A DNA stretch of 37,445 nucleotides from positions 1 to 37,445 of the forward strand of contig SVHZ01000018.1 of the NCBI GenBank assembly GCA_015055525.1, read 5' to 3'. Shown one piece after another: positions 7,519 through 28,558 of this stretch. Source of the DNA: Clostridiales bacterium. Its GTDB lineage: Bacteria; Bacillota; Clostridia; Christensenellales; Borkfalkiaceae. The notes under the pieces were generated by a model. That model was given only the letters and a program-made list of their open reading frames with translations, ran no database searches and was not told the DNA's origin. Each line of letters begins with the position of its first letter. Position 1 is the first letter of the stretch. Both the position numbers and the translations under genes were made by a program.

Positions 7519-8765
7519 TATTTCCTCTTAATTTTAGAAAGGTAAAATCCTGCCCCAAGTGATAGATATGGTAAAAATTGCAAACCAAACTTCGTTTTTA
7601 AGTGTGGTAAATTCGAATTGCAATCAACGACTTCAAAACCGCTATTATTTGCTATAAACTTCTCGATAACGCCATCGTTTTCTTCTCTCATTACAGAGCA
7701 AGTTGAATAAACCAACTCCCCTCCTTTTTTTAAGTATCTTGCTGAATTTTCAAGAATTTTAAGTTGAGTTTTTACGATTTCGCTAATCGCGTTATCCGTT
7801 CTATTAAGTTTAATATCTGGGTTATCTTTCATAACGCCGGTGCCTGAACAAGGAACGTCACAAAGTACCCCGTCGAAAGAATTTTCAAACTCTAAATTAA
7901 ATATCGTGCTATCCTTAACCATAGCAGTTATATTTTGCTTATTCATACGGTTTGCATACGATTTTATAAGTTCTACCCTATGCTCGTGAATATCGCACGC
8001 CGTTACGCTTTTATACTTATCACTTAAAAACACCGCTTTTCCGCCGGGAGCAGAACAAGTGTCAAGCAAAGAGTTGCCACCACTAAACACCGAGCATATT
8101 GCAACAGAGCCTATCGATTGAAAGGTATATAAACCGCTATAAAAATCATCGTTTAACGGAAAATGCTTAACTTCAAACGAATTATCAAACGGAGTTTTTG
8201 CAAATTCAACGTTGTTTTCGGCTAAATATTTAGCGCCGTCTATCCCCGTATTAAAACGAATATAGGTTTTATCTTCATCGTAACTTAAAAAATCAAGCGC
8301 AACTTCAAGCCCGTAACTATCAATCAATCTTTTTATTATAAAATCGGGGCAAGAATATCTTATCGATAAAGACAAAACGTCATTACCGCTTGGAAGTTCA
8401 ATTTGAGTTCTCGTAAAATTCCTAAGAACTGCATTTATAAACCCGGAAACACCGCCCTTTCCCATCTTTTTTGCAAGGCTAACTAAATTGTCAGTTACAA
8501 CGTGAGGTGGGGTTTTAAGATAGTTTATTGAATAAAGACCTATTTTTAACAGCGTCTTTATCGCAAGTTTAGGCGATTTTGAACATAGTTTTGACAAAAA
8601 ATATTCAAGCGTAATATCTTTATCTAAAACGCCGTAACAAATTTTGGTAACTCTTGCCTTGTTTAGCGGTTCGACTTGCGTTGATGAAAGCGCCTGCTTT
8701 ATATAAGTTTTATCACTATAAACTTTAGATAAAACGTTGTAACAATCATAATAAGTAACGAGCAT
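7518..8765 (-). CDS. rsmB: 16S rRNA (cytosine-967-C5) methyltransferase RsmB
   Basis: The 415-aa protein has an N-terminal NusB-like RNA-binding domain (about residues 1-125) and a C-terminal SAM-dependent methylase. The SAM motif is LLDTCSAPGGKAVFLSDK. The two catalytic cysteine motifs are CDVPCSGTGVMKDNP and YSTCSVMREEND. It methylates C967 of 16S rRNA. It overlaps fmt at its start and rlmN at its end, the standard def-fmt-rsmB-rlmN order of Firmicutes. Confidence 0.95.
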   Translation of the reverse strand: MLVTYYDCYNVLSKVYSDKTYIKQALSSTQVEPLNKARVTKICYGVLDKDITLEYFLSKLCSKSPKLAIKTLLKIGLYSINYLKTPPHVVTDNLVSLAKKMGKGGVSGFINAVLRNFTRTQIELPSGNDVLSLSIRYSCPDFIIKRLIDSYGLEVALDFLSYDEDKTYIRFNTGIDGAKYLAENNVEFAKTPFDNSFEVKHFPLNDDFYSGLYTFQSIGSVAICSVFSGGNSLLDTCSAPGGKAVFLSDKYKSVTACDIHEHRVELIKSYANRMNKQNITAMVKDSTIFNLEFENSFDGVLCDVPCSGTGVMKDNPDIKLNRTDNAISEIVKTQLKILENSARYLKKGGELVYSTCSVMREENDGVIEKFIANNSGFEVVDCNSNLPHLKTKFGLQFLPYLSLGAGFYLSKIKRK

Positions 8766-9679
8766 TAAAATTTATACCCCGCGTTAATTTTATGACCGAG
8801 CAAGAAGTCCTTGCTATTCATACGCTTACTGCCTTCAAGTTGAACTTCGGTAAAACAAATTACCCCGCTACCCGTGTAAACGTTTATACCGCCGTCAAGA
8901 TCTTTAACCGAACCAATCTCACCGCTACCTTCTTTTACCATTGCAGAATAAACTTTTAAGGTTTTCCCTTCAAAGAAGGTAAATGCTATCGGCCACGGAT
9001 TAAGACCACGAATTAAATTGTTTATTTGAGTTGCGGTTTTATTAAAATCAATCAAACCGTCGTTTTTAGAAAGCATTTTAACGTGAGTTGCCAAACTTTC
9101 GTCTTGCTTAATCGGGGTTAATTCCCCACGCTCAATCTTGTCAAGCGCGTCGACTATAGTTTTAGCGCCTAAATCAGAAAGCCTATCAAACAATTCTCCC
9201 GCAGTTTCATTATCTTTAATATCTAACTTTGTTTGCATTAAAATATCGCCCGTATCAACGCCAACGTCAGTTTGCATAACGGTAACGCCAGTTTCTTTAT
9301 CGCCGTTGATAATCGAATACTGTATGGGCGCAGAACCGCGGTATTTTGGAAGTAACGACGCATGCACGTTAATAACGCCGTACTTTGCTATTTCTAATAT
9401 TTCTTTTGATAGTATTTGACCGAAGGCGCAAGTTACCATAATATCGGGATTTAACGCCTTTAAGTCTTCAACTCCTTCATACCTTATTTTTTCATAAGAA
9501 TAAACTGGTAAGCCCAAGTTTTGCGCACACGCCTTAACCGCGCAAGGCGTTATTATTGCCTTGCGACCTACCGGTCTATCAGGTTGCGTTACAACCGCTA
9601 TTACTTGATGTTTTGACGCGTTTATCGCTTCAAGTGGTTTTACCGAAAAATCGGGAGTTCCTAAAAATACTACTTTCAT
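8765..9679 (-). CDS. fmt: Methionyl-tRNA formyltransferase
   Basis: The 304-aa enzyme formylates the initiator Met-tRNA using 10-formyl-THF. The N-terminal Rossmann domain opens MKVVFLGTPDFSVKPLEAI. The catalytic Asn-His-Asp set is in GVINVHASLLPKYRGSAPIQ and TDVGVDTGDIL. The C-terminal OB-like tRNA-binding domain contains IRGLNPWPIAFTFFEGKTLK. It overlaps both def and rsmB, forming a tightly coupled initiator-formylation/deformylation module. Confidence 0.96.
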   Translation of the reverse strand: MKVVFLGTPDFSVKPLEAINASKHQVIAVVTQPDRPVGRKAIITPCAVKACAQNLGLPVYSYEKIRYEGVEDLKALNPDIMVTCAFGQILSKEILEIAKYGVINVHASLLPKYRGSAPIQYSIINGDKETGVTVMQTDVGVDTGDILMQTKLDIKDNETAGELFDRLSDLGAKTIVDALDKIERGELTPIKQDESLATHVKMLSKNDGLIDFNKTATQINNLIRGLNPWPIAFTFFEGKTLKVYSAMVKEGSGEIGSVKDLDGGINVYTGSGVICFTEVQLEGSKRMNSKDFLLGHKINAGYKF

Positions 9680-10149
9680 TATCTATCGCTTGCCTTTACG
9701 TTTTTTGCCTTGTCAATATACAAAGTTCCGTCAAGATGGTCGTATTCGTGGCAAATTGCCCTTGCAATAAAGCCTTCGGCTTTAATTTCAAACCAATCTC
9801 CGTTTCTATCTTGATATCTCACGGTTACTTTATTAGGTCTAGTTACGTCACCTTGCATACCGGGAACGGATAAACAACCCTCAACCCCCGTTTGAGTTCC
9901 GCTTTGCGAAATAATTTCAGGATTGATAAACTCAATGACGCCGTCTCTTACGCTATCCCCGTCAATCACTATAAAAATTCTTTTGAGTACGCCCACTTGA
10001 ACGGCGGCAAGACCTGCCCCGTCTGCTTTTACGAGCGTATCGTACATATCGTCTAAAAGTTGATGCGTTCTTTCGCCAAAATCGGTAACTTCAAACGATC
10101 TTTTTCTTAAAACTTCGTCGCCTTGTTTTACTATTTGTCTAATTGCCAT
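9679..10149 (-). CDS. def: Peptide deformylase
   Basis: The 156-aa metalloenzyme removes the formyl group from nascent proteins. All three deformylase motifs are present: GAGLAAVQVG (motif 1), EGCLSVPG (motif 2, metal Cys) and CHEYDHLDG (motif 3, HExxH). The short C-terminus (KAKNVKASDR) resembles the compact type. A clear AGGAG ribosome site precedes ATG, 7 bases after priA. Confidence 0.96.
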   Translation of the reverse strand: MAIRQIVKQGDEVLRKRSFEVTDFGERTHQLLDDMYDTLVKADGAGLAAVQVGVLKRIFIVIDGDSVRDGVIEFINPEIISQSGTQTGVEGCLSVPGMQGDVTRPNKVTVRYQDRNGDWFEIKAEGFIARAICHEYDHLDGTLYIDKAKNVKASDR

Positions 10150-10156
10150 AATTCTC

Positions 10157-12352
10157 CTAATTCATCGTTGACGGATTAACTTCTACGTAACATAGCACTT
10201 TTTTTGAAGTTAAGCCGTTTGCTATGCTATAAAACTCGTCTTCAATGCGAGCGTAATCGTCTTTTATCCTACAAAGTATTTGATATCTAAATTTATTTTT
10301 AATTCGTTTTACCGGGCTCTTCATTCTATCAAAGTAAATAAATGACGAGTGATAATTTTCCTGAACTTGTTTAGCCTTTTCAAAGGCTTGCTTTAAGGTT
10401 GAAATTGCAAGGCTCTCGTCTTCGCTTTCAACCATAATTCTTACAACGTGCGAAAACGGTGGGAAATACGATGCTTTTCTAACCGCAACTTCACGATTAT
10501 AAAAACTTTCGTAATCGTAATTTACGCTTGCAGTTAACGTTGGGTTTTTAGGCGAATAAGTTTGAAGCACAACTTTTCCTTGCGCTCCCGCTCTACCACT
10601 ACGCCCCGCAACCTGCGTTACAAGTTGAAAAGTCCTTTCCCCAGAACGATAATCTGAAAAATATAAACTCATATCCGCATCGAGTATTCCAACTAAGGTT
10701 ACAGACGGAAAATCGTGCCCTTTTGCAACCATCTGCGTTCCAACTAAAATATCAGCCTTTTTCTCCCCAAATTCTTTAAGAATTTTGAAGTGACCTTCTT
10801 TATTTTGCGTTGTATCGTTATCCATACGGAGTATTTTTGCGTTTGGAAAGAGTTCGTTTAATTCGGTAACGACTTTTTGAGTGCCCGTACCACTATAATT
10901 TATACTAACCGACCCACACTCGGGGCAAGCCGTTAACATGTGATATTGACTACCGCAGTAATGACATTTCAACACGTCGTCCGCCTTGTGATAATTAAGC
11001 GATACGTCACAATTTAAGCACTTTGCAACGTAACCGCACTCACGGCATATTACCTTTTGCGAATAACCGCGCCTATTTAGAAATATTATCGCTTGGTTTC
11101 CACTTTCAAGGGTCTTTTGAAGTTCGGCTTTAAGCGCTAATGAAAATGGCGAGATATTTCCTCTTTTAACTTCTTCACGCATATCGGCAATCACTATTTC
11201 GGGAAGGGGTTTACCGTTTACGCGTTCGTTCATAACCGCCAAATTATATTCGCCGTTCTTTGCTTTAAGATAACTTTCAACCTTGGGAGTTGCGCTACCT
11301 AAAACGAGTTTAGCACCAGAAAGTTTTGCTCTCATCAAAGCAATCTCTTCAGTAACGTATCTAGGCGAAGTTTCACTCTCGTAACTTTGATCGTGCTCTT
11401 CATCGATTATTATTATCCCCAAGTTTTCAAGTGGAGCAAATATCGCGCTACGAGCACCGATTGCAATAGTTGCCTCGTTGCTACGAAGCCTCCACCACTC
11501 GTCAAACTTCTCCCCTGCCGACAATCCGCTATGAAGTATCGCGCATTTATCGCCAAAACGTGAGCGAAGCCTTGAAAAAGTTTGAGGCGTAAGCGAGATT
11601 TCAGGAACAAGCATTATAGCCGTTTTTCCGCTTAAAATAGTTTTTTCAATAAGTTGAAGGTAAACTTCGGTTTTTCCGCTACCCGTAACACCTTTTATAA
11701 GCGTGGGCTTATCACTTAAAATAACCGATTCTACCGCGGATTTTTGCTCGTTAGTTAAAAGAACTCTTCCGCCTTGGTTATCTAAATTTTTATAAGGCGT
11801 TCTTAAAATTTGCTCTTCGGTTACTACTAAATACCCCTTGTTTTTAAGCGCCGTTACAGACGAAGCGGAAAAGGTTTCGTTCAAAATAGAGGCTTTCGTC
11901 TTGCCGTTTTTTTGCAAATATTTAATAACTGCAACCTGCTTGTCCGCTCCCTTTCTTATGCTTGAAAGCATACTTTCAACAGCGATATCTTCCGCAAGCG
12001 AAACGTAATTTGCAGTTTTTTTTCTAACTTTACCCGTGCGCATTTCAGAAGGCAAAAACAATCTTAAAACACTAGCCATTGAAGAGTGATATTTTTTGTG
12101 GATATACTCGGCTAACGCTAAATTTTCTTCCGTCAATGCGGGAACTTCGTCAATTACTCTTATTATCGATTTAAGTTTATCATCGGGAAATTCGGAAATT
12201 TCGCTCGTTTCAATAACGAAACCTTCCGTTTTGAACCTACCAAACGGAACGATAACACGGCTACCCCGAACTGCGCCTGAGTAGCCTATTTTGTAATCAA
12301 AAATTTTATCAAGTTCCGACGTGGCTATATCCACTATGACTTTTGCTATCAT
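10157..12352 (-). CDS. priA: Primosomal helicase PriA
   Basis: The 731-aa replication-restart helicase has an N-terminal 3'-DNA-binding domain (MIAKVIVDIATSELDKIFDYKIG) and a winged helix. The superfamily-2 core has Walker A GVTGSGKTEVY near residue 220 and DEEH in IIIIDEEHDQSYE. A zinc region (about 430-480) has CRECGYVAKCLNC, CHYCG and CPECG cysteine pairs. It is complete by family length. The initiator is set by alignment to the conserved N-terminus; no Shine-Dalgarno lies upstream and the rpoZ terminator ends about 33 bases before the ATG, so it needs its own promoter or tolerates read-through. Confidence 0.96.
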   Translation of the reverse strand: MIAKVIVDIATSELDKIFDYKIGYSGAVRGSRVIVPFGRFKTEGFVIETSEISEFPDDKLKSIIRVIDEVPALTEENLALAEYIHKKYHSSMASVLRLFLPSEMRTGKVRKKTANYVSLAEDIAVESMLSSIRKGADKQVAVIKYLQKNGKTKASILNETFSASSVTALKNKGYLVVTEEQILRTPYKNLDNQGGRVLLTNEQKSAVESVILSDKPTLIKGVTGSGKTEVYLQLIEKTILSGKTAIMLVPEISLTPQTFSRLRSRFGDKCAILHSGLSAGEKFDEWWRLRSNEATIAIGARSAIFAPLENLGIIIIDEEHDQSYESETSPRYVTEEIALMRAKLSGAKLVLGSATPKVESYLKAKNGEYNLAVMNERVNGKPLPEIVIADMREEVKRGNISPFSLALKAELQKTLESGNQAIIFLNRRGYSQKVICRECGYVAKCLNCDVSLNYHKADDVLKCHYCGSQYHMLTACPECGSVSINYSGTGTQKVVTELNELFPNAKILRMDNDTTQNKEGHFKILKEFGEKKADILVGTQMVAKGHDFPSVTLVGILDADMSLYFSDYRSGERTFQLVTQVAGRSGRAGAQGKVVLQTYSPKNPTLTASVNYDYESFYNREVAVRKASYFPPFSHVVRIMVESEDESLAISTLKQAFEKAKQVQENYHSSFIYFDRMKSPVKRIKNKFRYQILCRIKDDYARIEDEFYSIANGLTSKKVLCYVEVNPSTMN

Positions 12353-12670: not shown

Positions 12671-13549
12671 TTACTCAATATTTTGTATTTGCTCGCGGAT
12701 TTTCTCAATCTCGCACTTTAATTTCAATGCGTTGTCCGTAACTTCTATATCGTTCGCTTTAGAACAAATAGTGTTTGACTCTCTGTTAAACTCTTGAACT
12801 AAGAAATCAAGTTTCTTACCCACTTCGCCCGTTTGCTCGCAAATCGAACGCAACTGCGATATGTGAGAATATAATCTTGTTATCTCTTCATCAATATTAG
12901 ACTTATCTGCAAAAAGTTGAACTTCCATCAAAAGCCTTGACTCGTCAACTTCGCTACCTTCAAGCACGGTTTGAACTTTTTTAAGTATCTTATCGTGATA
13001 TTCCTTGCTAACAAGCGGTGCGCGTTCCTTAATCACTCCAACCGTTTCTTCAATGGTTTTAACCCTACTTAAAACGTCTGCCTTTAACTTTTCGCCTTCA
13101 AATAAACGCATAGCGTTTAAGTTTTCACACGCCTTGTTGATAGTTTCAACTAAAATAGGTGAAATCTCATCAACGTTAAAACTCTCTTGCGATAATCTTA
13201 AAACGTCAGGCGTTTTCATAAGAGATGAAACGGTAAAGTCGTTTTTAAGAGATGGGAATTGCTTTTTAATTTGCTTTGCAACGGCAACGTAAGCAGTTGC
13301 AAGTTCGCTATCAAGTTCAACTGCGCCTTCTCTATCACCTTGCTTATAGTAATTAACGAAAAGGTCAACCTTACCCCTTGATAAGTGGTTTTGAACGGTT
13401 GAACGCATAACGTCTTGCAAGCAAGTAAACGAGCGAGGACACTTGTAAGATAAATCTAAAAACCTATTATTTACACTTTTTATTTCAACGGTGAGCGTTA
13501 TTCCGTTTGAAGAATATTCCGCCTTGCCGTAACCTGTCATACTTTTCAT
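12671..13549 (-). CDS. yicC: YicC-family endoribonuclease
   Basis: The 292-aa product begins MKSMTGYGKAEYSSNGITLTVEIKSVNNRFLDLSYK, the hallmark YicC N-terminal domain. It ends with the DUF1732 C-terminal domain (GKKLDFLVQEFNRESNTICSKAND). YicC proteins are recently recognised hexameric RNases that act on small RNAs and stress transcripts. The start has a GGGTG-like ribosome site. It heads a two-gene unit with rpoZ, with its own promoter directly after the ligA stop. Confidence 0.93.
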   Translation of the reverse strand: MKSMTGYGKAEYSSNGITLTVEIKSVNNRFLDLSYKCPRSFTCLQDVMRSTVQNHLSRGKVDLFVNYYKQGDREGAVELDSELATAYVAVAKQIKKQFPSLKNDFTVSSLMKTPDVLRLSQESFNVDEISPILVETINKACENLNAMRLFEGEKLKADVLSRVKTIEETVGVIKERAPLVSKEYHDKILKKVQTVLEGSEVDESRLLMEVQLFADKSNIDEEITRLYSHISQLRSICEQTGEVGKKLDFLVQEFNRESNTICSKANDIEVTDNALKLKCEIEKIREQIQNIE

Positions 13550-13609: not shown

Positions 13610-17814
<4,205 letters not shown>

Positions 17815-22830: not shown

Positions 22831-23425
22831 GATTTTTGACGTTGTTTTGAAAATAAATGGTATTTATTTTCTCTGAACAAACCGAGAGTAAAAACTCAGT
22901 TTTATCAACTGATAAATTATAACTTTTTACCGAATAATCAGCAAGTTCGATTTTTGATGGGTTAAAAGTTTTTGAGTCTAACTTTTTATATACGCTTTCC
23001 TTACCCGTCCACGCAGTTAATAAGAAGTTATTTTTTTCGATTTTATCTAACTTTTTATAAGTTTCAAGTTCAGTTTCGGTCAATATCTTTTTATCAAGAT
23101 TATCGGCTACTATCTTAACCTTTTCTATATCTACTCCAACTTGTGAATTTGAAATGGCAACGCAAACAAAATCATCGCTATGAGATATTGAAAAATAAAC
23201 GCCACTTGCCACCCACTTGCCGTTATCCAACTTTTCAAATTCTAAATCTTTAATTTGTAAATTCAAAGAAGATTTTAACGCGTTTTCTAAAAGTTTCCAC
23301 GAGGCATATTTTTGAGTTTTAACCTTTTCACTTTTGCAAGATAAAATTTCCAAAAGCCTACCTTTTGGATAAACGTCTAAACCGACCGTGTAATTTGAAA
23401 TTTTATCAATGTAAACGTGTAGCAT
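22814..23425 (-). CDS. 4'-phosphopantetheinyl transferase, Sfp type
   Basis: From MLHVYIDKI the product is 203 aa; an in-frame Met ten codons upstream is less likely because AAAGGAT is well placed before 23425. It attaches phosphopantetheine from CoA to carrier proteins. Signature motifs are VGVDIEKV (metal-binding Asp/Glu) and FLLTAWTGKESVYKKL (the WxxKES motif), with WVASGVYFSISHSDDFVCVAIS between. No carrier protein, NRPS or PKS is in the window, so its target is elsewhere; it could serve fatty-acid ACP if no AcpS exists. No obvious promoter lies between it and the tRNA genes upstream. Confidence 0.9.
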   Translation of the reverse strand: MLHVYIDKISNYTVGLDVYPKGRLLEILSCKSEKVKTQKYASWKLLENALKSSLNLQIKDLEFEKLDNGKWVASGVYFSISHSDDFVCVAISNSQVGVDIEKVKIVADNLDKKILTETELETYKKLDKIEKNNFLLTAWTGKESVYKKLDSKTFNPSKIELADYSVKSYNLSVDKTEFLLSVCSEKINTIYFQNNVKNLYIKN

Positions 23426-23440
23426 ACAATCCTTTTTAAC

Positions 23441-23488
23441 GAAAAAACTCCGCAACTAGCGGTGTTTTTAAGTGGAGCGGGAAACGGG
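23441..23488. repeat. Direct-repeat copy A: duplicated tRNA-Gly 3' end plus terminator
   Basis: This near-copy of 23583-23628 includes an 18-base identical stretch (23471-23488) that is the last 16 bases of tRNA-Gly including CCA plus two flanking bases. It is followed by a decayed version of the terminator hairpin. It is not a functional tRNA. Confidence 0.8.
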
Positions 23489-23582
23489 GGATTCCCCTAC
23501 TAGGGGAAATGTCCGCAAGGACAAAAGGGTTGCGCCCTGCTAAGGGCCGAACCGTAGGTGAGAGTTCCGTTCCTCGCGAAAT
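23489..23582. repeat. Structured GC-richer element between the two tRNA-Gly 3' copies
   Basis: About 94 bases hold three hairpins in a row: TTCCCCTA-C-TAGGGGAA (23492-23508), TGTCC-GCAA-GGACA with a GNRA loop (23510-23523), and GGTT..GCCCT-GCTA-AGGGC..AACC (23528-23553). It is visibly GC-richer than its surroundings. No credible ORF is present. It resembles the REP/palindromic interspersed repeats of gut Firmicutes; that identification is from memory and untested. Confidence 0.6.
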
Positions 23583-23609
23583 GAAAAACTCCGCAATTAG
23601 CGGAGTTTT
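23580..23609 (-). terminator. Intrinsic terminator after tRNA-Gly
   Basis: A perfect 10-bp stem AAAACTCCGC/GCGGAGTTTT (23585-23594 with 23600-23609) is followed on minus by a T-run. It starts four bases after the encoded CCA. Confidence 0.8.
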
Positions 23610-23628
23610 GAGTGGAGCGGGAAACGGG
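23583..23628. repeat. Direct-repeat copy B: genuine tRNA-Gly 3' end plus terminator
   Basis: This is the intact partner of the repeat at 23441-23488. It contains the real tRNA-Gly 3' end and the perfect hairpin immediately downstream of it. Confidence 0.8.
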
Positions 23629-23688
23629 ACTCGAACCCGCGACAACTGCCTTGGCAAGGCAGTGCTCTACCAACTGAGCTACTCCCGC
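23613..23688 (-). tRNA. tRNA-Gly (GCC)
   Basis: A 76-nt cloverleaf on minus begins GCGGGAGTAGCTCAGTTGG. The anticodon stem-loop is CTGCC-TTGCCAA-GGCAG (anticodon GCC) and the T-arm contains GGTTCGAGTC. The acceptor 3' strand is TTCCCGC with a discriminator T and encoded CCA. The only weak acceptor pair is G7-U66. Confidence 0.96.
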
Positions 23689-23761
23689 ATTTTCGAAAAC
23701 AAACCGGCCTGCTCAAGCCAACTCATCCCCGAAATGCCTTTTATTCTCTTTCTGAGAAAAG

Positions 23762-23837
23762 TGGTGGGAGTTACAGGGCTCGAACCTGTGACCCTCTGCT
23801 TGTAAGGCAGATGCTCTCCCAGCTGAGCTAAACTCCC
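23762..23837 (-). tRNA. tRNA-Val (UAC)
   Basis: A 76-nt cloverleaf on minus begins GGGAGTTTAGCTCAGCTGG. The anticodon stem-loop is TCTGC-CTTACAA-GCAGA (anticodon TAC) and the T-arm contains GGTTCGAGCC. The acceptor 3' end is AACTCCC-A-CCA with encoded CCA. It is first in a two-tRNA transcript with tRNA-Gly 73 bases downstream. Confidence 0.96.
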
Positions 23838-23871
23838 ACTTGCCTTGCGCCTTTTCTCAAAACGCTCTATT

Positions 23872-23900
23872 AATATAACACTATTTTTTCTTTTTAGCAA
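23872..23900 (-). promoter_or_regulatory. Predicted promoter of the tRNA-Val/tRNA-Gly unit
   Basis: On minus there is -35 TTGCTA (23895-23900), a 17-nt spacer and extended -10 TGTTATATT (hexamer 23872-23877), about 35 bases before the tRNA-Val 5' end. This and the next promoter fill the 179 bases between the tRNA and the TIR gene; I see nothing else there. Confidence 0.6.
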
Positions 23901-23957
23901 CTGTTTTTAACGCTTTTTTAAACTTTTTTTGGAAAATTTAATATTTGCGATAAAATC

Positions 23958-23986
23958 TTGAAATTAAACAATCATTGTGATATAAT
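23958..23986 (+). promoter_or_regulatory. Strong extended -10 promoter of the TIR-CutA operon
   Basis: -35 TTGAAA (23958-23963), a 17-nt spacer and extended -10 TGATATAAT (hexamer 23981-23986). The predicted start gives a leader of about 24 nt with AGGAAA as ribosome site. There is no obvious operator, so expression may be constitutive. Confidence 0.78.
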
Positions 23987-24016
23987 AATTCTAAATATAT
24001 TAGGAAATCTCAATAA

Positions 24017-25591
24017 ATGCCAATTTTTGAAAATTTTATTAGTTATAGACGAAAAGAAACTCTGCTTGAAGTAAAAAATATTTATGACGCTCTAAAAAAT
24101 CGCGGATTTTCAACTTTTTGTGACGTATACACGTTAGACAACGGAAACTTTGATGACAATTTAGTTAAATTTGTTAAAAATTGCACTAATTACATTTTAG
24201 TTATTAACAACAACTCTTTAGATAGGTGCTCTGAAGAAGGAGATTGGCTGTTACGCGAGATTAAACTAGCTCTAAGTAACAATAAAAACATTGTAATAGT
24301 TTTTGTTGGCAACGTTGACTTTAATAACCTACCAGATGAAATAAATGAATTACGCTATAAAAACGGCTTAAAATTTGATACGATTTATTTTGATTCGTTT
24401 GTAGACGAATTGGTTAAACGATTTTTAGTTAAAAGTGAAGACTGGGAAAAATCGTCAGAGAATGATTTTTTAATTGAAGGCACTAAACTTATTAAATATC
24501 AAGGAAATGCACGCCAAGTTATTATTCCATTAGAAATAGAAACCATAGGTTGCTCCGCTTTCAAGGATAACACTTCAATAAAAGAGATTATTTTTAACAA
24601 TAAGTTAAAAATAATTGAAGAATCAGCATTTGAACGCTGTCTTTCGTTATCACACATTGAATTACCTAAAGACGTTAAAATACTTGAAACTCGAGCATTT
24701 GCTCGTTGTTATAGCTTATTAAACGTTACACTAAACGACAACTTAACAACCATTGAAGACGAGTGCTTTGCATTTTGTTCTAACTTAAAACATTTTACTC
24801 TTTCTCAAGGTGTAACTATTTGTAAAGAATCGGCATTTAACCATTGTTCTCTACTTACACAATTTGTAGTCGAAGATGGAAACAAGAGTTTTTCAACCAT
24901 TGAAGGAATATTATATAACTACGATCAAAGCGCGTTGTTAAGATGCCCCACTAATTACACAAAAAATTGCATAATAATTCCTTCAACCATTAACACGATA
25001 GGAAATTACTCTTTTTATAAATGCAGTGAAATCAAAGACGTAATTTTACCCGAATCTACAACAAAAATAGGCGAATACGCATTTGCCGACTGCCGAAACA
25101 TAAGCTATTTATGTTTACCTAGCGAAATAAATGAAATATCAGAAACGTCATTTTTAGGTTGGGAATCAAGCCAAATTATAAATTTTGAAAAAATTAAAAA
25201 TGATGACGTTAAGTCAATTATAGAAAAGTTTACAAATCACACTTCTACAACTGATAACTTAGGCGTAAATTCAGAATATATTCTAGTAAAAACAACTTTC
25301 GAATCCGAACACGAAGCCATAGATATGGCAAAGGGATTATTAGGGAAACACTTAATAACGTCTGGGCAAATTTCAAAATTAAGATCAATATATACATGGG
25401 AAAATAAATTTTGTGACGAAAACGAGTATGAACTTTCTTGTATAACAAGGGGTGAAATGTATTCCGATATAGAAAAATTTATCCACTCTCACCATTCGTA
25501 CGATTTATGCGAACTTATGGTTATCCCTATCGCTCACGTTCCTCAAAATTTTGGAGATTGGGTAACCGATTATATTAAGGAGAAAAAATAA
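24017..25591 (+). CDS. TIR - BspA-type LRR - CutA-like fusion protein
   Basis: The 524-aa cytosolic protein has no signal peptide or TM segment. Residues 1 to about 130 form a TIR domain: FISYRRKE (box 1), IYDALKNRGFSTFCDVYTL (box 2 region) and SEEGDWLLREIKLAL. There Glu81 matches the catalytic NADase Glu in the DWxxxEIxxAL element of SARM1-like TIRs. Residues about 165-395 hold around eight LRR_5/BspA repeats (pattern AFxxCxxLxxIxLP), including the common YNYDQSALLRCP insert. Residues about 419-520 are CutA-like (SIYTWENKFCDENEYEL; HSHHSYDLCELMVIPI). It heads a four-gene operon and its stop overlaps the next ATG. An NAD-cleaving immune or signalling effector is inferred. Confidence 0.85.
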   Translation: MPIFENFISYRRKETLLEVKNIYDALKNRGFSTFCDVYTLDNGNFDDNLVKFVKNCTNYILVINNNSLDRCSEEGDWLLREIKLALSNNKNIVIVFVGNVDFNNLPDEINELRYKNGLKFDTIYFDSFVDELVKRFLVKSEDWEKSSENDFLIEGTKLIKYQGNARQVIIPLEIETIGCSAFKDNTSIKEIIFNNKLKIIEESAFERCLSLSHIELPKDVKILETRAFARCYSLLNVTLNDNLTTIEDECFAFCSNLKHFTLSQGVTICKESAFNHCSLLTQFVVEDGNKSFSTIEGILYNYDQSALLRCPTNYTKNCIIIPSTINTIGNYSFYKCSEIKDVILPESTTKIGEYAFADCRNISYLCLPSEINEISETSFLGWESSQIINFEKIKNDDVKSIIEKFTNHTSTTDNLGVNSEYILVKTTFESEHEAIDMAKGLLGKHLITSGQISKLRSIYTWENKFCDENEYELSCITRGEMYSDIEKFIHSHHSYDLCELMVIPIAHVPQNFGDWVTDYIKEKK

Positions 25592-25869
25592 TGATAGGAA
25601 TAGTTGGAAATCTATTGATCAAATATTCAATCGAAAATAAAACTTATTGTGATACGGTCAATATGATATATCAAAAAGAATTTAGCCTCACAGGATGCCC
25701 TGCAATTAAATTTACAATTGATGAAATAACTTATATTGAAGATACAATTTACGGCGTTGAGATTTCATTTGAAGATGAAGATTGGTACGTAAGCGGAAAC
25801 GAACCTACTACTTTTCAAATTGAAAAATATAATATTTCGGGAACAATTGAATTATCATTTTTAAATTAG
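25591..25869 (+). CDS. Small protein of unknown function in the TIR-CutA operon
   Basis: I do not recognise this 92-aa protein. It is acidic and looks beta-rich, with alternating hydrophobic stretches such as CPAIKFTIDEITYIEDTIYGVEISF and ISGTIELSFL. It has no signal peptide and no TM segment. Its ATG shares a base with the TIR gene stop (TAATG), indicating translational coupling and probably fixed stoichiometry. CutA follows 9 bases after its stop. It could be a binding partner or inhibitor of the TIR fusion; nothing in the sequence proves this. Confidence 0.75.
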   Translation: MIGIVGNLLIKYSIENKTYCDTVNMIYQKEFSLTGCPAIKFTIDEITYIEDTIYGVEISFEDEDWYVSGNEPTTFQIEKYNISGTIELSFLN

Positions 25870-25878
25870 GAGTTAATT

Positions 25879-26193
25879 ATGGATAATAATTATTGTGTTA
25901 TAATAACAACAACAAATGAAAACAACGCTAAAATTTTAGCCGACAATTTAGTAGTAAACAAACTTGCAGCATGCGTTCAAATGATTAAGATGAATAGCGT
26001 TTACGAGTGGGAAGGCAAAATATGCCACGATGACGAAGTGCTTATGCTTATTAAAACTCGCTCTAAATTGTTTGATGATTGCTGTAAATCAATTAAATCA
26101 TTACACGATTACGACGTTCCTGAAATAATTAAACTAAATATTGACGACGGCAATGAGGAGTATTTAAAATGGATTTCAACCCAAACAAAATAA
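25879..26193 (+). CDS. cutA: CutA1-family protein
   Basis: The 104-aa product is a full-length CutA. It shows CVIITTTNENNAKILADNLV, KLAACVQMIKMNSVYEWEGKI (family KLAACVxxxxxxSxYxWEGKI), EVLMLIKTR and HDYDVPEIIKLNI. CutA proteins form very stable ferredoxin-like trimers, historically linked to divalent-cation tolerance, but their function is unsettled. The preceding AGGAG is a good ribosome site. It shares its fold with the C-terminal domain of the TIR protein two genes upstream, so mixed trimers are conceivable. Confidence 0.93.
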   Translation: MDNNYCVIITTTNENNAKILADNLVVNKLAACVQMIKMNSVYEWEGKICHDDEVLMLIKTRSKLFDDCCKSIKSLHDYDVPEIIKLNIDDGNEEYLKWISTQTK

Positions 26194-26507
26194 CAGAATA
26201 TAAAATTGAAGTTTTTGTTCCCGTAGAATCAAAAGACGTAGTCTTAAATGCAATTAAAAGCTTAAACGTTGGAGTAATTGGAAACTACTACAACTGTATT
26301 TCATGCACAAACGTAATTTCTTCTTGGGATTCCAACCAATACGCTAATCCATTTTTAGGCGAAAAAGGACAAAGTTTTCAAACTGATGAAATAAAAATAG
26401 AAACTAGATGCTCAAAAGAAAAAATACATCACTTAATTGAAAAAATAAAATCAGTCCACCCTTATGAGTCAGTCTGCATAAACGTTATACCAATTTTATC
26501 AATCTAA
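26169..26507 (+). CDS. YqfO/NIF3-insert-like (PII/CutA-fold) protein
   Basis: The 112-aa product begins within the last 25 bases of cutA and has its own GAGGAG site. It matches the stand-alone YqfO-type domain otherwise inserted in NIF3/DUF34 proteins: IEVFVPVESKDVVLNAI, GVIGNYYNCISCTNV (family GxxGNYxxCS), NPFLGEKG (family PFxGxxG) and a C-terminal IKSVHPYESVCINVIPI (HPYExP-like). That domain has a CutA/PII-like fold. The operon therefore encodes three proteins of this structural class. The ligand is unknown. Confidence 0.83.
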   Translation: MDFNPNKITEYKIEVFVPVESKDVVLNAIKSLNVGVIGNYYNCISCTNVISSWDSNQYANPFLGEKGQSFQTDEIKIETRCSKEKIHHLIEKIKSVHPYESVCINVIPILSI

Positions 26508-26520
26508 TTCATATAATAAT

Positions 26521-26549
26521 AAAAAATGCACGGTTTCCGTGCATTTTTT
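26521..26549. terminator. Bidirectional terminator between the TIR-CutA operon and recG
   Basis: A 13-bp stem AAAAAATGCACGG/CCGTGCATTTTTT surrounds a TTT loop, giving T-runs on both strands. The recG stop codon begins in the final Ts. Confidence 0.92.
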
Positions 26550-28558
26550 TAGTTTAATGTAACGTTTTTAAGTTCATCGTAAAATTCAAGCGCGTACTTT
26601 CTAAGCGAGGGAACGTTATTAGCATCTTTGAAAGCCTCGTCAGATAACGCCTTTGCCATAAACACGGTTTTACTTGAATATCTTAAACCTTTAAGATGAG
26701 TAAGTATTCTACCCGATTGACGTTCGCCAAGAAGATCTCCGCCACCGCGCATATCAAAGTCAAGTTCACTTATCTTAAACCCGTCTGAACACGATTTTAT
26801 AGCGTTAAGACGTTCTATCGCCTTTTCACTTTCCTTGGTTATAAACAAGAAACAATAACTCTTTTTATCAGACCTTCCAACTCTACCCCTTAACTGATGA
26901 AGTTGTGAAAGACCAAACCTTTCAGCGCTCATTATTACCATAACCGTAGCATCAGGCACGTCAACCCCCACCTCGATTACAGTTGTTGAAACTAAAACGT
27001 CATACTTTTTGTTCTTAAAATCGTTCATAATAGATAGTTTTTCACTATCTTTCATCTTGCCGTGAAGAAGCCCTACGTTTACGCCTGAAAGAGTTGCGGT
27101 AAGTTCTTCGTAAAGTTCTTTAACTGAAAGAGTTGTGCTTTCATCGTCGCCATCAATTTTAGGACATACAAAATACGTTTGAAAACCTTTTTTAGCCTGC
27201 TCTTTTACAAAGCCTAACATATCTTCATACTTCTTAGTGTGAACAATATTAGTTTGAATCTCCGCTCTTTCCTTAGGCTTATCAAGTATTGTTGAAATAT
27301 CAAGGTCGCCATAGAAAATAAGAGAGATAGTTCTAGGGATAGGCGTTGCACTCATAACCAAAACGTCTGTGAGTTCACCCTTTTCTTCAAGGGCGCTACG
27401 CTGGGCTACGCCAAAGCGTTGCTGTTCGTCACACACGCACAATGCTAAATTTGAAAACTCGACGTTATCTTGAATAACGGCGTGAGTTCCAACAAGTAAA
27501 TCTATCTCGCCACTTTTTAAGCGTTCTTTAATCTTTTTCTTTTCGCTTGCAGTTAAACTGCCTGATAAATAACCTATTTCAAACTCGCTTAAATATTTTT
27601 TAGCAATCTCGTAATTTTGCTTTGCAAGAACTTCAGTTGGAGCAAGTAAACTTGCTTGATAACCAGATTTTAGCGCTATATATAAGGCGCATAAAGATAC
27701 GGCGGTTTTACCGCTACCAACGTCGCCTTGAAGTAACCTATTCATAGTAAAAGGGGAAGTTAAATCTTTATAAACTTCGTTGACGGCAGACTTTTGCCCA
27801 TCTGTAAACTCAAAGGGAAAGCGTTTTATAAATGACAGTAAATCTTCCGAATTTACCGAATATTTTCTCGGTTTTGCTTGTTTTTTATCTCCCTTAATTA
27901 TTCTAAAAGCCGATATCAACTTAAAATATTCTTCAAGCGCAATTCTATTTGATGCGTTAGAAAGAGAGTTCAAACTCGTTGGAGAGTGAACTTCTAAATA
28001 AGCGTTATAAAGTGAAGTTAAGGCGTACTTTTGATGAAGATAGTAAGGAATTGATGAAGTTGGGGAAACTGATTTTACAGCGCTTTGACAAATCGTCTTC
28101 ATAGCGCTTTGAGTAAGACTACCTTTAATTGTGTAAACGGGCATAAAACCTTTGAGCCTAGACCTATTGCCAACAGGCTCAAATATCGGATTAGTCATTG
28201 AAACCATACCGTATTTTACGTTTACTCTACCGTAAAAAAAGTATTCTTCCCCACTTTTAAGTTTACCTGCAACGTATGGTTGATTAAACCAAATTACACT
28301 AAAAGTGTCCGCTCCTTGCGAACAGTATGCCTTAACGTACTTTACCCTTCCGCCAACCGATTGACGCGGTTCTATATCAACTCTTGCAACAGTCAAAACC
28401 ACGTCGTTATTATAAGCCTCGGAAAGCGGCGTAACGACGGTTAAATCTAGATAGTTTCTAGGAAAGTATTTAATTAAATCTTCCGCGGTGTTGATAGAGA
28501 GTTTTTTAAGGTCTTTTATCCTACCGTCGGAAACGTACTTAACCTCTTTTAAGTTCAT
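26549..28558 (-). CDS. recG: ATP-dependent DNA helicase RecG
   Basis: The 669-aa branch-migration helicase remodels stalled forks. An N-terminal wedge/OB domain contains LSINTAEDLIKYFPRNYLDL and VARVDIEPRQSVGG. Helicase core: LLQGDVGSGKTAVS (Walker A, about residue 280), CDEQQRFGVAQR (motif II is DEQQ where DEQH is commoner), MSATPIPRT (III) and QLRGRVGRS (VI). The C-terminal TRG-like FDMRGGGDLLGERQSG is present. It follows fakA, as in most Firmicutes. A hairpin lies 7 bases before the ATG and no Shine-Dalgarno is visible. Confidence 0.96.
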   Translation of the reverse strand: MNLKEVKYVSDGRIKDLKKLSINTAEDLIKYFPRNYLDLTVVTPLSEAYNNDVVLTVARVDIEPRQSVGGRVKYVKAYCSQGADTFSVIWFNQPYVAGKLKSGEEYFFYGRVNVKYGMVSMTNPIFEPVGNRSRLKGFMPVYTIKGSLTQSAMKTICQSAVKSVSPTSSIPYYLHQKYALTSLYNAYLEVHSPTSLNSLSNASNRIALEEYFKLISAFRIIKGDKKQAKPRKYSVNSEDLLSFIKRFPFEFTDGQKSAVNEVYKDLTSPFTMNRLLQGDVGSGKTAVSLCALYIALKSGYQASLLAPTEVLAKQNYEIAKKYLSEFEIGYLSGSLTASEKKKIKERLKSGEIDLLVGTHAVIQDNVEFSNLALCVCDEQQRFGVAQRSALEEKGELTDVLVMSATPIPRTISLIFYGDLDISTILDKPKERAEIQTNIVHTKKYEDMLGFVKEQAKKGFQTYFVCPKIDGDDESTTLSVKELYEELTATLSGVNVGLLHGKMKDSEKLSIMNDFKNKKYDVLVSTTVIEVGVDVPDATVMVIMSAERFGLSQLHQLRGRVGRSDKKSYCFLFITKESEKAIERLNAIKSCSDGFKISELDFDMRGGGDLLGERQSGRILTHLKGLRYSSKTVFMAKALSDEAFKDANNVPSLRKYALEFYDELKNVTLN

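Follow-up and report, generated by a model that had tools for sequence, protein, structure and literature searches.

The question raised by this locus of a gut bacterium is what a CutA domain, an ancient fold that binds small molecules and is still little understood, does at the end of a TIR protein whose gene is followed by a second, separate CutA gene. The locus lies in a stretch of 37,445 nucleotides (hereafter the window) from a Clostridiales bacterium, for which an original prediction, made from sequence alone, had claimed a CutA-like domain at the C-terminus of a TIR-LRR protein. The claim held, being borne out by Pfam, by the predicted fold and by six loci. The gene and its parts are as follows:

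24017–25591, + strand: TIR-LRR-CutA protein, 524 aa, ATG start (open reading frame; Pfam TIR_2, LRR_5 and CutA1; five other full-length relatives)
24032–24430, + strand: SARM1-like TIR domain, residues about 6–138 (SARM1 TIR, E 6.4e-17 over residues 6–136)
24257–24259, + strand: putative catalytic Glu81 of the TIR (E81 in 6/6)
24464–25186, + strand: BspA-type leucine-rich repeats, residues about 150–390 (LRR_5, E 3e-42; fold match to LRR structures 4gt6 and 4cp6)
25277–25588, + strand: fused CutA domain, residues about 421–524 (Pfam CutA1, E 6e-21; predicted CutA topology; TMt 0.93 to 1o5j)

Within the window protein, the matches to TIR_2 (residues 7–101, E 8e-9, 36.4 bits against a cut-off of 28), LRR_5 and CutA1 each exceed their Pfam cut-offs. 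The CutA1 (PF03091) match covers residues 423–518 (nt 25283–25570), scores 74.5 bits (cut-off 22.4) and spans profile positions 2–98 of 99, making it full-length. A profile of five fused domains matched CutA crystal structures, the best being 1uku (E 4.3e-16). Residues 421–521 were predicted by AlphaFold2 (five natural sequences) to fold as beta-alpha-beta-beta-alpha-beta plus a C-terminal helix, and Foldseek placed 1o5j on this predicted model with an rmsd of 1.2 Å over 102 columns (TMt 0.93), the CutA structures in the rows shown giving TMt values of about 0.83–0.93. The fused protein was modelled as a single chain; the model is poor in the TIR (pLDDT blocks 29–66) and good in the LRR and across most of the CutA domain. 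Thus, neither of the outcomes that would have refuted the original prediction, a profile search without a CutA hit or a topology other than ferredoxin-like, was obtained. Its alignment of motifs with the free CutA held in outline (SIYTWENK, DENEYEL and HHSYDLCEL in the fused domain vs SVYEWEGK, HDDEVLM and HDYDVPEI in the free protein), and its statement that no TIR-CutA fusion had been described agrees with the open PubMed Central literature that we searched, in which we found none; subscription journals and outside preprints were not covered. Its suggestion of a trimerisation module or ligand sensor stays an inference, as there are no assembly or ligand-binding data. With an E-value of 6e-21 and six separate genomes or records, chance or artefact is ruled out as the origin of the fusion.

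The fusion gene is the first of four genes in series on the + strand, encoding the TIR-LRR-CutA protein, a 92-aa protein, a 104-aa CutA and a 112-aa protein, such that CutA-superfamily modules are present in three of the four products. The original prediction was silent on this four-gene operon and on its third CutA-superfamily protein (the 112-aa product, E 7.8e-5). The remaining elements are:

23958–23986, + strand: sigma-70-type promoter TTGAAA-17-TATAAT, the -10 preceded by TG (11/12 consensus positions)
25591–25869, + strand: all-beta protein, 92 aa (unmatched in Pfam, PADLOC and NCBIfam; in 4/6 cassettes)
25879–26193, + strand: free CutA, 104 aa (Pfam CutA1, E 2.8e-35; 3' of the fusion gene in 6/6 cassettes)
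26169–26507, + strand: YqfO/COG3323-like CutA-superfamily protein, 112 aa, stand-alone and carrying an HPYE motif (CutA1, E 7.8e-5; counterpart in L020, a relative described below)
26521–26549, no strand assigned: terminator-like stem of 13 pairs with T-runs on both strands, common to the operon and recG (from the sequence)

The promoter is the best of 17 promoter-like sites in 23400–26700 (shuffle mean 12.8) and ends 30 bases before the first ATG. The ATG of the 92-aa gene overlaps the stop of the fusion gene by one base, and the 112-aa gene overlaps the free CutA gene by 25 bases. For the 112-aa protein, the YqfO/COG3323 assignment relies on the CutA1 profile, the cut-off of which (22.4 bits) it barely exceeds at 22.8 bits, and on the HPYE motif present in its sequence and described for the COG3323 group (PMC8469502); no COG3323 profile was run. 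The 92-aa protein had no PDB sequence match below E 0.4. Its model (pLDDT 85) is all-beta, with 7s9y as the best fold match (E 0.011, Z 7.4, rmsd 3.5 Å over 88 residues). FHA and C2 domains reached a Z of about 3–6, and no family is given.

The same TIR-LRR-CutA fusion was identified in five other genomes or records, with proteins 44–55 % identical to that of the window: genome G214 of the same family (CALWCE010000004.1; loci L004–L006 and L021), the MAG contigs JAFTIV010000201.1 (L020) and JAFQRV010000022.1 (L022), the IMG/VR record IMGVR_UViG_3300035502_000938 (L023) and genome G926 (L024). A separate CutA gene lies 3' of the fusion in all six cassettes, window included, the 92-aa gene is found in four of the six, and gene 4 (the 112-aa protein) was seen only in the window and L020. 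In L020 the 92-aa gene and the free CutA form a single reading frame of 200 aa, and because the two are one protein there, the 92-aa product is probably an accessory subunit working with the free CutA, although this is inferred. Neither the 92-aa gene nor gene 4 is essential, since the former is absent from two of the six loci and the latter was not seen in four. At L022 the 92-aa gene and the free CutA gene, both with open frames, are separated by a gene for an IS110-type transposase. Mean identity over the 15 pairs was 59.5 % for the TIR, 55.3 % for the CutA and 45.6 % for the LRR, the least conserved of the three; we infer that such faster divergence is what one would predict for an LRR in contact with a partner that itself changes.

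Searches for additional members revealed no further copy in genome contigs queried with the CutA domain alone; likewise, for viral contigs two queries found no further copy and two more returned only the known IMG/VR record. Plasmid and phage tblastn searches gave mostly LRR matches, none covering 80 % of the query, and two plasmid records gave a TIR-only match. LRR matches also came top in a fold search against viral proteins. Across a phylum sample of 398 genomes there was no fusion besides that of the window, with the proviso that some open frames were left out (a 304-aa CutA open frame in G1163 and other open frames of 200–250 aa).

Among solved structures, SARM1 is the closest TIR by sequence (E 6.4e-17). 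Glu81, conserved in all six fusions, aligns with the Glu of the SARM1 DWVHKE segment, which we take to be the catalytic E642. As such, we regard the domain as an NADase-type, SARM1-like TIR; cleavage of NAD+ is inferred, as no activity data exist. The conserved TIR starts at residue 4 in all six proteins, leaving no room for a signal peptide. At E below 1e-10, TIRs were found in 10 of 248 genomes of the order, the window's own included, and in five other TIR regions of the order the TIR was joined to LRR/DUF285, a methyltransferase or GNAT, without a CutA. The window's own genome carries a second TIR protein, fused to a GNAT acetyltransferase domain (G000:C3:58876-59241; L098 3384–4772, − strand), and a similar TIR-GNAT protein is present in G395 (L097). 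Two genomes of the order encode a TIR with a methyltransferase-like domain (L095 3043–4368, + strand; L096 3655–4998, − strand), the domains of L095 being assigned by Pfam and those of L096 from the translation only. A further gene (L094 5225–7270, + strand) specifies a TIR with DUF285/LRR repeats and a possible membrane segment between them, without CutA, and is flanked by ORFs resembling channel-type proteins.

The fused and free CutA of the window are only 28 % identical, and their sequences differ in a diagnostic segment. The HxYxxPE signature is absent from all six fused domains, which have (H/N)HS(Y/F)xxC(E/Q) instead; the free partners keep HxYxxPE. That this signature marks an ordinary CutA is based on the lone CutAs read in the present analysis. 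As the signature Pro is gone from the fused domains, and the Glu from four of the six, the fused pocket may possibly not bind the ligand of an ordinary CutA. Neither protein reached the NCBIfam CutA equivalog NF041095 (cut-off 120 bits), the fused domain scoring 56.9 and the free CutA 105.9.

A tree of 41 CutA domains placed the six fused domains in one clade (100/99), which groups with four lone CutAs of the same order; two of these four adjoin dnaK/dnaJ-type and def/fmt-type genes, as read from translations. The free partners fall elsewhere and are not sister to the fused clade. Topology tests rejected free and fused domains as one clade (p-AU 3e-5) and the free partners as a single clade (p-AU 0.005). 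The pairs window+L020 and L023+L024 are common to the fused and free trees. As the tests reject both groupings, this is possibly a long-standing two-subunit system in which the free subunit has been renewed at least once, or from which the lone CutAs descend. These results call for caution given the short domain (104 columns). Separately, a recent in-place duplication of the free neighbour was rejected as the source of the fused domain (p-AU 1e-6 for a fused+free clade of window and L020).

CutA (PF03091) is rare in the families concerned, with 2 positive genomes among 251 in the window's family, 1 among 115 in the G926 family and 1 among 15 in the family to which the L022 genome belongs. Taken together, a CutA of any kind is present in 4 of the 381 genomes of these three families, and all four have the fused and free pair. 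It was detected in 14/396, 40/391 and 35/398 genomes of the order, class and phylum samples, respectively, counts that take in partial YqfO-type matches and come from samples that share genomes, the window's among them. As a control, a broad TIR profile detected no TIR near 29 lone CutA genes (0/29, 209 kb), the 29 being drawn from 48 genomes of these samples in which a full-length CutA stands alone. The control is incomplete, some of the 29 contigs being short, and the profile, built from TIRs found here, is by construction positive in all 10 TIR-holding loci.

The surroundings of several copies bear signs of mobility. The G214 cassette (L006) has two large serine recombinases nearby, as well as a Mob_Pre relaxase and a fragment of a methyltransferase. 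In G926 (L024) 54 bases separate a large serine recombinase from the start of the cassette, and a MobA/MobL relaxase is located upstream. The L023 copy is an IMG/VR record with two resolvase-family genes. For the window, the cassette is located between a tRNA-Gly/tRNA-Val pair and recG, an orthologue of which is found in seven of eight other genomes of the genus. One of these (G054) has the order and orientation of the window without the cassette, tRNA-Val lying about 80 bases beyond recG; G041 and G083 lack the cassette as well, their tRNA pair being inverted and located about 120 and 235 bases after recG, respectively. The tRNAs are inverted in G074 too, where a different 287-aa gene occupies the cassette site, and beside recG the contig ends in G008 and G065 and other genes follow in G026. 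G+C content is 29–32 % for the cassette vs 35–39 % for recG. We found no convincing attachment-site repeats at the cassette ends and recognized no recombinase among the neighbours of the window copy, and the L020 copy is surrounded by chromosomal housekeeping genes. Judged by its context of recombinases, relaxases, resolvases and cassette-free sites in relatives, the cassette is probably mobile.

Several observations were made alongside. Compared with its orientation in the window and G054, the tRNA-Gly/tRNA-Val block beside recG (window 23606–23929; recG side from 26544 onward) is flipped in three genomes (G041, G083 and G074), and the 3' side of recG is a variable site. A 98-aa ORF of the 'NGTRTRD...LYQLSYSR' type opposite two tRNA genes (window 23509–23805) is very probably spurious. 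Downstream of the L024 cassette are two macro domains (12850–13158 and 16490–17002, + strand; one matches only part of the profile) and another TIR protein, of zinc-ribbon type, encoded between them (15295–16464); macro domains bind ADP-ribose, a TIR product. Directly 3' of the L023 cassette are two further TIR proteins (8137–9864 and 9901–10893, + strand), which with the cassette may possibly form a defence cluster.

The architecture, its recurrence, a free partner in every copy found, the signs of mobility and the retention of the putative catalytic Glu are shown. How the parts work is a matter of inference, and our favoured reading, a mobile NADase-type defence operon in which the TIR is gated by mixed CutA oligomers, is in our judgement as likely to be right as wrong; its trimers, mixing, gating, NAD+ cleavage and phage trigger are all inferred. 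In this view the 524-aa protein would combine a cytosolic NADase-type TIR effector, an LRR arm acting as sensor or scaffold, and a C-terminal CutA. Fused and separately encoded CutA would form PII-like trimers, and mixed trimers would hold the TIRs apart or in check, with the 92-aa all-beta protein as an accessory subunit alongside the free CutA. A small-molecule change in the inter-subunit CutA pockets, a phage product bound by the LRR, or both, would alter the assembly, whereupon the TIRs would meet, NAD+ would be consumed and growth would stop or the cell die. We suggest that the CutA tail sets the TIR assembly state, with the free CutA joining that assembly as its second subunit, because the SARM1 NADase is restrained by another domain until a nucleotide change releases it and lets the TIRs meet (PMC8494770), and because CutA forms trimers and has been proposed to carry or signal small molecules (PMC8469502, PMC7694984). 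The free CutA in 6/6 cassettes adds weight to the mixed-oligomer reading, which remains an inference without assembly or ligand data. The defence reading rests on the mobile, sporadic, TIR-bearing context, protection against phage being inferred. A bolder version would have the cassette be a new bacterial defence switch, a TIR NADase gated by mixed trimers of fused and free CutA, and with it the first clear role for CutA and a bacterial counterpart of fungal HET/PII-like cell-death pairs; taken as one joint claim, this is less likely than not.

Other explanations deserve consideration. It remains possible that the cassette is toxin-antitoxin-like. The free CutA, alone or jointly with the 92-aa protein, would then serve mainly to neutralise, by capping the CutA tail of a TIR that is dangerous at all times, and loss or sequestration of the free CutA, rather than ligand sensing, would free the toxin. 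Tight linkage of the free CutA in 6/6 copies, a single operon with overlapping genes and the mobile context all favour this. Against it, the CutA fold is very stable, unlike typical labile antitoxins, and a large, faster-diverging LRR arm is unneeded in a plain toxin-antitoxin pair. Equally conceivable is that the fused CutA is a homotrimerisation tag only and never mixes with the free CutA, which would work separately, as a ligand carrier or as a second sensor. The placement of fused and free domains in different CutA lineages, with 28 % identity in the window, is consistent with such a division; strict pairing in rare genomes otherwise without CutA, however, exceeds what a tag needs.

The remaining two alternatives are weaker. 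An extracellular TIR-BspA protein acting on the immune signalling of an animal host would fit the best LRR structural match, 4gt6, which is annotated as a cell-surface protein. This is very unlikely, however, as the TIR of all six proteins starts too early (residue 4) for a signal peptide to precede it, the gene is co-transcribed with those for small CutA-type proteins, and two copies adjoin mobilisation genes. Weaker still is a metal-tolerance operon, for which the annotation of CutA as a divalent-cation tolerance protein is the argument. Later work found no link of CutA to this function (PMC7694984), which was not confirmed in cyanobacteria (PMC7694984, PMC8469502); moreover, none of the four genes encodes a transporter or regulator of metals, and the TIR would be left unexplained.

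The fusion is thus real, recurrent and undescribed as far as we have searched, and the mechanism, a TIR gated by mixed CutA oligomers, is plausible and unproven. As CutA is here genetically tied to a death-type effector, growth or an NAD+ read-out could report what CutA senses, and if the proposal is true a PII-like regulatory module is added to TIR immunity. PADLOC matched only the TIR, weakly, and gave no match for the CutA genes, and the cassette was rejected as a known defence system on that basis. The TIR gives weak ThsB and Thoeris type III matches, a feature in common with Thoeris (ThsB TIR/ThsA); identity with it was rejected, as there is no ThsA-type NAD+-binding effector domain among the other three operon proteins and the type III match, at 23.9 bits, is far under the cut-off of 220. 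Ordinary CutA1 has the fold and family common to the fused domain and the free protein, but is a lone small protein, and the fused domain lies far under the NCBIfam equivalog cut-off. SARM1 provides the closest solved TIR, with its DWxxxE segment, and a precedent for an NADase gated by nucleotides on another domain and by TIR–TIR contacts (PMC8494770), but has no second CutA-type subunit. It has ARM and SAM domains, where the cassette protein has LRR and CutA. The nearest functional parallel is het-B of Podospora anserina, in which cell death results when a HET protein, HET being TIR-related, interacts with the PII-like product of a neighbouring gene, 89 such HET/PII-like neighbours having been reported in fungi (PMC10890737). 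What the two have in common is a TIR-related death-domain protein whose gene adjoins one for a small PII-like protein of the trimeric kind; het-B is, however, fungal, its BH protein joins HET to a lectin fold rather than TIR to LRR, and its PII-like protein, BP, is not fused. The resemblance is therefore by analogy, in style, and relatedness is not shown; nevertheless, if our reading is true, the cassette would support the het-B idea of a recurring partnership between PII-like proteins and TIR-related killers.
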